Assembly: GCA_009782605.1 (NCBI GenBank)
Contig: WRIR01000002.1
Location: 1 to 64,000, forward strand
Source: Eggerthellaceae bacterium
GTDB lineage: Bacteria > Actinomycetota > Coriobacteriia > Coriobacteriales > Eggerthellaceae
Direction of reading: 5' to 3'
Length of the DNA stretch: 64,000 bases
The notes beneath the pieces were generated by a model. It made no database searches. It was not told the origin of the DNA and saw only the letters and a program-made list of their open reading frames with translations. This document shows positions 41,817 through 41,978 of the stretch, in pieces; the stretch's first letter is position 1, and each line of letters starts with the position of its first letter. The translations under genes were made by a program, and so were the position numbers.

Positions 41817-41978
41817 GTTATGCCGTTCTGCCGAACGGCATAACGAGCCGATGCTGCGACGCGCCCAGATGCCCAACCTTGCCCCTTGTGCGCTTACCCT
41901 CGCGTACAAAGTACGCTCGGCCGCGCGGCGGGGCAATCTTTGGCATCGGGACGCCTCTCGCTGACTGATATGGACCTG
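41817..41978 (-). other. Structured intergenic element, copy 2, in the obgE leader
   Basis: Reverse complement aligns along its length with 24386-24546; 3' hairpin GTTATGCCGTTC-GGCA-GAACGGCATAAC ends 3 nt before the obgE GTG. Confidence 0.85.

Follow-up and report, generated by a model that had tools for sequence, protein, structure and literature searches.

Described repeats and the present element

REP and BIME repeats, with their associated RAYT (Y1), are imperfect palindromes that lie near stop codons, and their folding on one strand matters. The BOX repeats of pneumococci are built of A-B-C modules with an expandable centre. They are interspersed and structured, favor the 3′ ends of genes, and sometimes supply stop codons or ORFs (PMC3049150). 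The best-known palindromic elements lying in frame within conserved proteins are those of Rickettsia. There, as described in PMC10969869, which cites Ogata (2000, 2002), palindromic repeats of about 150 bp (RPE) are present in many copies, between genes as well as in frame in unrelated conserved genes, to which they add a peptide.

Here we consider a structured element just upstream of obgE in a 64,000-nt stretch of an Eggerthellaceae genome (the window). It is one copy of a non-autonomous dispersed palindromic element that is spread through Coriobacteriales, at intergenic sites and, in several genera, at sites in frame within genes. Its behavior is closest to that of RPE and BOX. With RPE it shares the short palindrome and the many genomic copies, both found here, and the insertion in frame in unrelated conserved genes, found in other genera, the copies of this genus being intergenic. 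The likeness to RPE is one of described behavior, and no sequence relation was found by Rfam, or by Pfam and NCBIfam for the peptide. The present family differs in order and phylum, in its occurrence in both orientations in LeuRS, in its variable modular tail hairpin and in its strong, RNA-like fold on one strand. From BOX it differs by the repeated tail hairpin module and by frequent internal in-frame insertions, again with no sequence relation found. The imperfect palindrome near stop codons and the one-strand fold are shared with REP and BIME, but the element is much longer (about 165 nt) and the presence of Y1_Tnp does not follow its copy number. Leaders that sequester the ribosome-binding site also have a hairpin ending at the start codon, but the present element is not conserved at obgE and has no Shine-Dalgarno (SD) sequence to sequester.

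The element upstream of obgE

The first-pass annotation had taken the element for the second copy of a structured element in the window, a label that holds (Table 1), and had placed the end of its 3′ hairpin 3 nt upstream of the obgE GTG. The minus strand indeed reads, from 41844 to 41817, GTTATGCCGTTC-GGCA-GAACGGCATAAC, followed by CAC and then by GTG at 41813-41811. The folding energy of this tail hairpin is -18.9 kcal/mol, and by a rough estimate about 0.04 perfect 12-bp hairpins with a loop of 3-8 nt are expected by chance in 64 kb. The 196-nt region around the copy folds at -93.5 kcal/mol (z = -4.6 versus shuffles).

Two further claims, a terminator after rpmA and the lack of an SD before obgE, were likewise borne out. 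Terminator-like hairpins (42032-42015) and a T run are found at the former place, and at the latter the SD window pairs with the anti-SD at only -2.8 kcal/mol, against a background mean of -4.2 and values of -5 to -12 in most relatives. As to the obgE-proximal transcript in which the first-pass annotation would place the element, no sigma-70-like promoter was matched in 41700-42200, such scans being weak. The gene before rpmA, by position rplU (42347-42700, minus strand), has a long Ala/Lys/Pro-rich repeated tail, with 66-nt repeats in the DNA.

Table 1. Features of the obgE locus and the two copies of the element in the window.
Feature	Position	Strand	Basis or remark
obgE	40419..41813	-	464 aa from GTG; N-terminal 160 aa matched by relatives
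obgE GTG start codon	41811..41813	-	MFIDKV-type start conserved in relatives; no SD
Whole structured palindromic element (copy 2)	41817..41980	-	164 nt; same strand as obgE
3′ tail hairpin, perfect 12 bp, loop GGCA	41817..41844	-	sequence and fold
Core long hairpin GTCAGCGAG...CGCAGCATC	41850..41965	-	
5′ motif CCCAGGTCCATATCA	41966..41980	-	alignments; family consensus CCCAGGTCCACACCA
Possible upstream ORF (ATG at 41997, 41991 or 41988)	41818..41997	-	TAA 4 nt before the obgE GTG
In-frame TTG with AAGGGG upstream	41874..41876	-	possible start of an N-terminally extended Obg
GGAAG after the terminator	42002..42006	-	possible stranded obgE SD; comparable to AGGAAAG of G001
Terminator-like hairpin(s) and T run after rpmA	about 42005..42032	-	
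rpmA (L27)	42080..42331	-	sequence
Copy 1 of the element	24385..24548	+	sequence alignment and family search

A family spread through the order

The reach of the family, about 30 copies in this genome and an order-wide distribution, goes beyond the view of the first-pass annotation. By blast, the element finds 18 places in the window's own genome besides its own tail palindrome, and the obgE copy is 74-81% identical to the other copies. A covariance model built from 70 copies scores the obgE copy at 97.8 bits (E 7e-27 over 41847-41977; cmsearch), and by this model there are 30 copies in the window's genome (G000), nine in a genome of the same genus (G001) and two weak ones in G002. Three single-contig genomes of Eggerthellaceae (G082, G080 and G073) hold 71, 44 and 56 copies, respectively. 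Within Eggerthellaceae the element is carried by 96 of 124 genomes and 34 of 46 genera. Among the Coriobacteriia sampled, 83 of 201 genomes have it, and these belong to the same order with one marginal exception (E 4e-4); other families of the order also hold copies. Two conserved end motifs, GTCAGCGAGG... and CGCAGCRTC, were used to scan GTDB. They located copies in Gordonibacter, Eggerthella, Adlercreutzia, Slackia, Rubneribacter, Enteroscipio and Ellagibacter; some 20 further matches, scattered elsewhere, were chance-like and were left out.

No Rfam family matched the element at gathering or permissive thresholds. Nor was a description of the repeat in this clade found in the open-access literature, which is weak evidence of novelty; the searches suggest a previously undescribed family. 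In attC sites the GTTAC and GTAAC ends stand in the order opposite to the element's, and an integron attC was rejected on this ground, as the palindrome begins with GTTAC and ends with GTAAC. Collinsella-1 RNA (PMC2864571) was also considered; copies from other families were scanned without an Rfam match.

A fold maintained on one strand

Forty-three unique 117-nt cores fit one hairpin structure, whose helices covary across copies and whose helix cells comprise 1575 Watson-Crick pairs, 200 G.T, 22 A.C and 52 others. A double-stranded palindrome read equally on both strands would give equal numbers of G.T and A.C; the large excess of G.T therefore argues that folding is kept on one strand. As judged from the sequences of the copies, this is the strand that carries the obgE message. 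Intergenic copies of this genus and G001 show the same bias: the outer stem has 48 G.T versus 5 A.C, and in 20 of 20 the sense fold is the more stable one. The one-strand fold is therefore not accounted for by protein coding.

Recurrent features of the core are tandem U.G/G.U pairs, tandem G.A/A.G pairs and a C(UUCG)G apex. The UUCG loop stabilizes RNA and not DNA, as has been argued for another motif (PMC2864571), and we therefore lean to RNA over single-stranded DNA as the folded molecule. The core ends, GUCAGCGAGG and CCGCAGCGUC, are constant, in part because the scan pattern required them.

The tail hairpin is built differently. Its sequence is wholly different between copies and is palindromic in nearly all of them, and the tail module is repeated, at 50-nt spacing, in several of this genome's copies. 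The tail core of the obgE copy, GCCGTTCGGCAGAACGGC, recurs in element tails of other species. A tail hairpin copied from its target site was considered, in view of the right arm shared with G001, and was dropped on finding this to be a common tail core.

Other rearrangements and repeats were observed. At G000:C11:53210-53469 (L006, L023 and L040) the 3′ half of the element, consisting of half a core and a tail, is duplicated in tandem, comparable to the tail-module duplications in L004, L008, L011 and L015. The 5′ motif (GGTCCACACCAGTCAG) is sometimes doubled just upstream (L002, L007, L011 and L016) and once stands alone (G000:C9:43461). A second dispersed palindrome, CGTCATTGCGGGCTTGACCCGCAATCTT, occurs in tandem and singly in the window (1700-1735, 4358-4585, 5918-5953 and 55106-55152) flanking several main-element copies as well (e.g., L005, L008 and L046). 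A tandem 20-nt repeat, GTCATTGCCTCTGGCGTTCC (window 1604-1723), adjoins the REP-like palindrome.

Insertions in protein genes

One frame of the element's reverse strand is free of stops in Gordonibacter, Eggerthella, Adlercreutzia and others. In a sample of 59 copies, the open frame continues for at least 60 codons before and at least 90 after the element in 20 cases, and 15 more extend a C terminus. The core is 117 nt (39 codons) in all 20 open-frame copies versus 29 of the remaining 39, a contrast that is partly circular because a copy with a frameshift would be prone to contain a stop. NCBIfam matches are split in two around the insert in LeuS, AcnA, RlmD, PriA, M18 aminopeptidase and PcrA, and in a fused gene the insert lies between HisZ and HisG. 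The inserted peptide itself has no Pfam or NCBIfam match.

The clearest case is LeuRS, which provides both filled and empty sites. Between NWIG and TLFG the orthologs have 39-44 residues in most genomes and 75-101 with the element; the LeuRS of L277 has 67 residues there without a recognized element. The element is antisense to leuS in L143, L153, L195 and L251 and sense, also in frame, in L250 and L252. Given opposite orientations in one loop, independent events are the simplest reading. The loop before ITVFTTRPDT is a hot spot of insertion in both orientations across genomes (L250, L252, L143, L153 and L195). In-frame inserts are also seen at apparently the same region in different genera in PriA (L185 and L171) and between HisZ and HisG (L138 and L179).

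In the window's own genus, all copies examined have stops in that frame and appear intergenic. By a simple gene finder, the gene that the tail faces is usually on the other strand, and its stop codon is often 0-6 nt from the tail end; simple random insertion does not explain this strong preference for stop codons. The obgE copy is an exception: here the tail abuts a start codon, and the gene lies on the strand of the element.

Host function and mobility

The structure is conserved far better than would be expected of decaying junk, and a host function is therefore possible. The element could be a structured RNA or 3′-UTR element recruited by the host, as a transcript stabilizer, a terminator or a protein-binding site, and duplicated in the genome without being selfish. 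The very strong one-strand structure, with its C(UUCG)G apex, tandem G.A and tandem U.G, fits such a role, as does a tail that follows the stop codons of opposing genes by 0-6 nt. We nevertheless hold host recruitment to be unlikely, given the in-frame inserts in LeuRS, aconitase, PriA and others, the differences in presence between genera, the copy numbers of 0 to 71, and the fact that at most sites the host mRNA has the complement, which folds less well.

No event of new transposition was seen. No copy was found in phages and plasmids, and an exact motif scan found none in viral contigs; hence there is no sign of a phage or plasmid carrier. The presence of Y1_Tnp does not track copy number: G053, G054 and G001 have many copies without it, and G010 has eight Y1_Tnp and no copies. 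Reverse transcriptase (RVT_1) does not track it either, there being none in this genome despite its 30 copies. As regards a MITE, the two ends of the element are unlike each other (CCCAGGTCC... versus the hairpin tail), no target-site duplication was legible in the variable LeuRS loop, and no parent transposon with matching ends was seen, Y1_Tnp and RVT_1 being those tested.

A speculative reading, to which we give a low probability, is that the family is a mobile element at the RNA level, a bacterial counterpart of SINEs. The folded RNA would be recognized by the architecture of the hairpin (C(UUCG)G apex, tandem G.A and variable palindromic tail) and copied to new sites by a putative enzyme, with a bias to the strand opposite host genes and to stop codons, and it would repeatedly have colonized coding sequences.

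The probable insertion at obgE

Only one of 30 Obg loci (those of relatives and of this genome) has the element, namely that of the window. A comparison of the rpmA-obgE spacer in close relatives, which had been suggested as a check, thus found the element in no relative; it did find a 13-nt arm-like stretch in G001, of the same genus. The G001 spacer is TTTTTTAGGAAAGAACGGCGTAACCAAAAATG and has an AGGA-type SD. The G001 leader has GAACGGCGTAACC before the ATG, at a nearly equal distance from the start; 12 of its 13 bases match the right arm of the tail in the window with one base added. At one fixed offset, a match of this kind has a chance of about 1e-6. Instead of a remnant, the G001 arm could be sequence native to the leader. 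We consider it less likely that native leader was copied into the hairpin, since unrelated genera have the same tail core.

The hairpin is a copy of an order-wide repeat that is also found in frame inside essential proteins, and the obgE copy therefore looks like an inserted passenger. It is very probably an inserted repeat. The reading we prefer joins to this that the copy, from a dispersed structured family, exerts no dedicated control of obgE, and we put the probability of the whole at about 0.78. On the simplest account, the element would, in an ancestor common to this genome and G001, have inserted between the obgE SD and the start codon, and it has probably separated the two. G001 would then have lost nearly all of it, with the 13-nt arm left, whereas this genome would have kept it. 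The GGAAG that may be the old SD would now precede a small upstream ORF, which would read through the element. Because this ORF stops 4 nt before the GTG, coupled translation would be possible, and coupling is our tentative suggestion for how obgE, lacking an SD of its own, may be translated; initiation without an SD is another candidate. Any effect on obgE would then be a by-product of the insertion and no dedicated switch.

A variant of the insertion reading has the element start an N-terminally extended Obg at the in-frame TTG, with the hairpin as coding sequence. This frame runs uninterrupted from 41936 to the end of obgE, the AAGGGG pairs with the anti-SD at -6.6 kcal/mol, and an N-terminal fusion would fit the family's habit of in-frame insertion. 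An open frame of that length is, however, common at this G+C content, the candidate SD lies inside the core stem, and the conserved MFIDKV start coincides with the GTG, which together make the extension improbable.

Of the two options offered by the first-pass annotation, insertion is supported by the dispersed and polymorphic nature of the family, by the presence of the element at only this one of the 30 Obg loci and by the arm-like remnant in G001. The other, control of obgE translation, has no support apart from position. As a dedicated cis-regulatory leader, the 3′ hairpin would hide the start region and open on a signal. Consistent with this, the hairpin covers the SD region, an SD is absent, and the GTG is predicted to be paired in the extended leader fold. 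Against it, the element is missing from the other 29 Obg loci, about 30 copies are present in the genome, G001 has only an arm-like remnant at obgE, and the usual context is inside ORFs or beside the stop codons of opposing genes; a dedicated leader is thus very improbable. An assembly artefact, in which a metagenome-assembled genome joined the repeat to obgE, can be set aside as extremely unlikely: with 30 contigs the assembly is fragmented, and the repeat stands at the end of several of them, but the obgE copy is diverged and lies well inside a 177-kb contig, which makes a mis-join unlikely, and G001 has the related arm at the same place.

Concluding remarks

Strong leader hairpins in this clade should be checked against the family before they are named riboregulators. 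Several proteins hold repeat-derived inserts of about 40-60 residues. In common gut Actinomycetota, a structurally elaborate family that extends through an order, reaches tens of copies per genome and has filled and empty sites in LeuRS offers a system in which to ask how coding genes can take up repeats while the host survives, and by what agent the repeats are copied.
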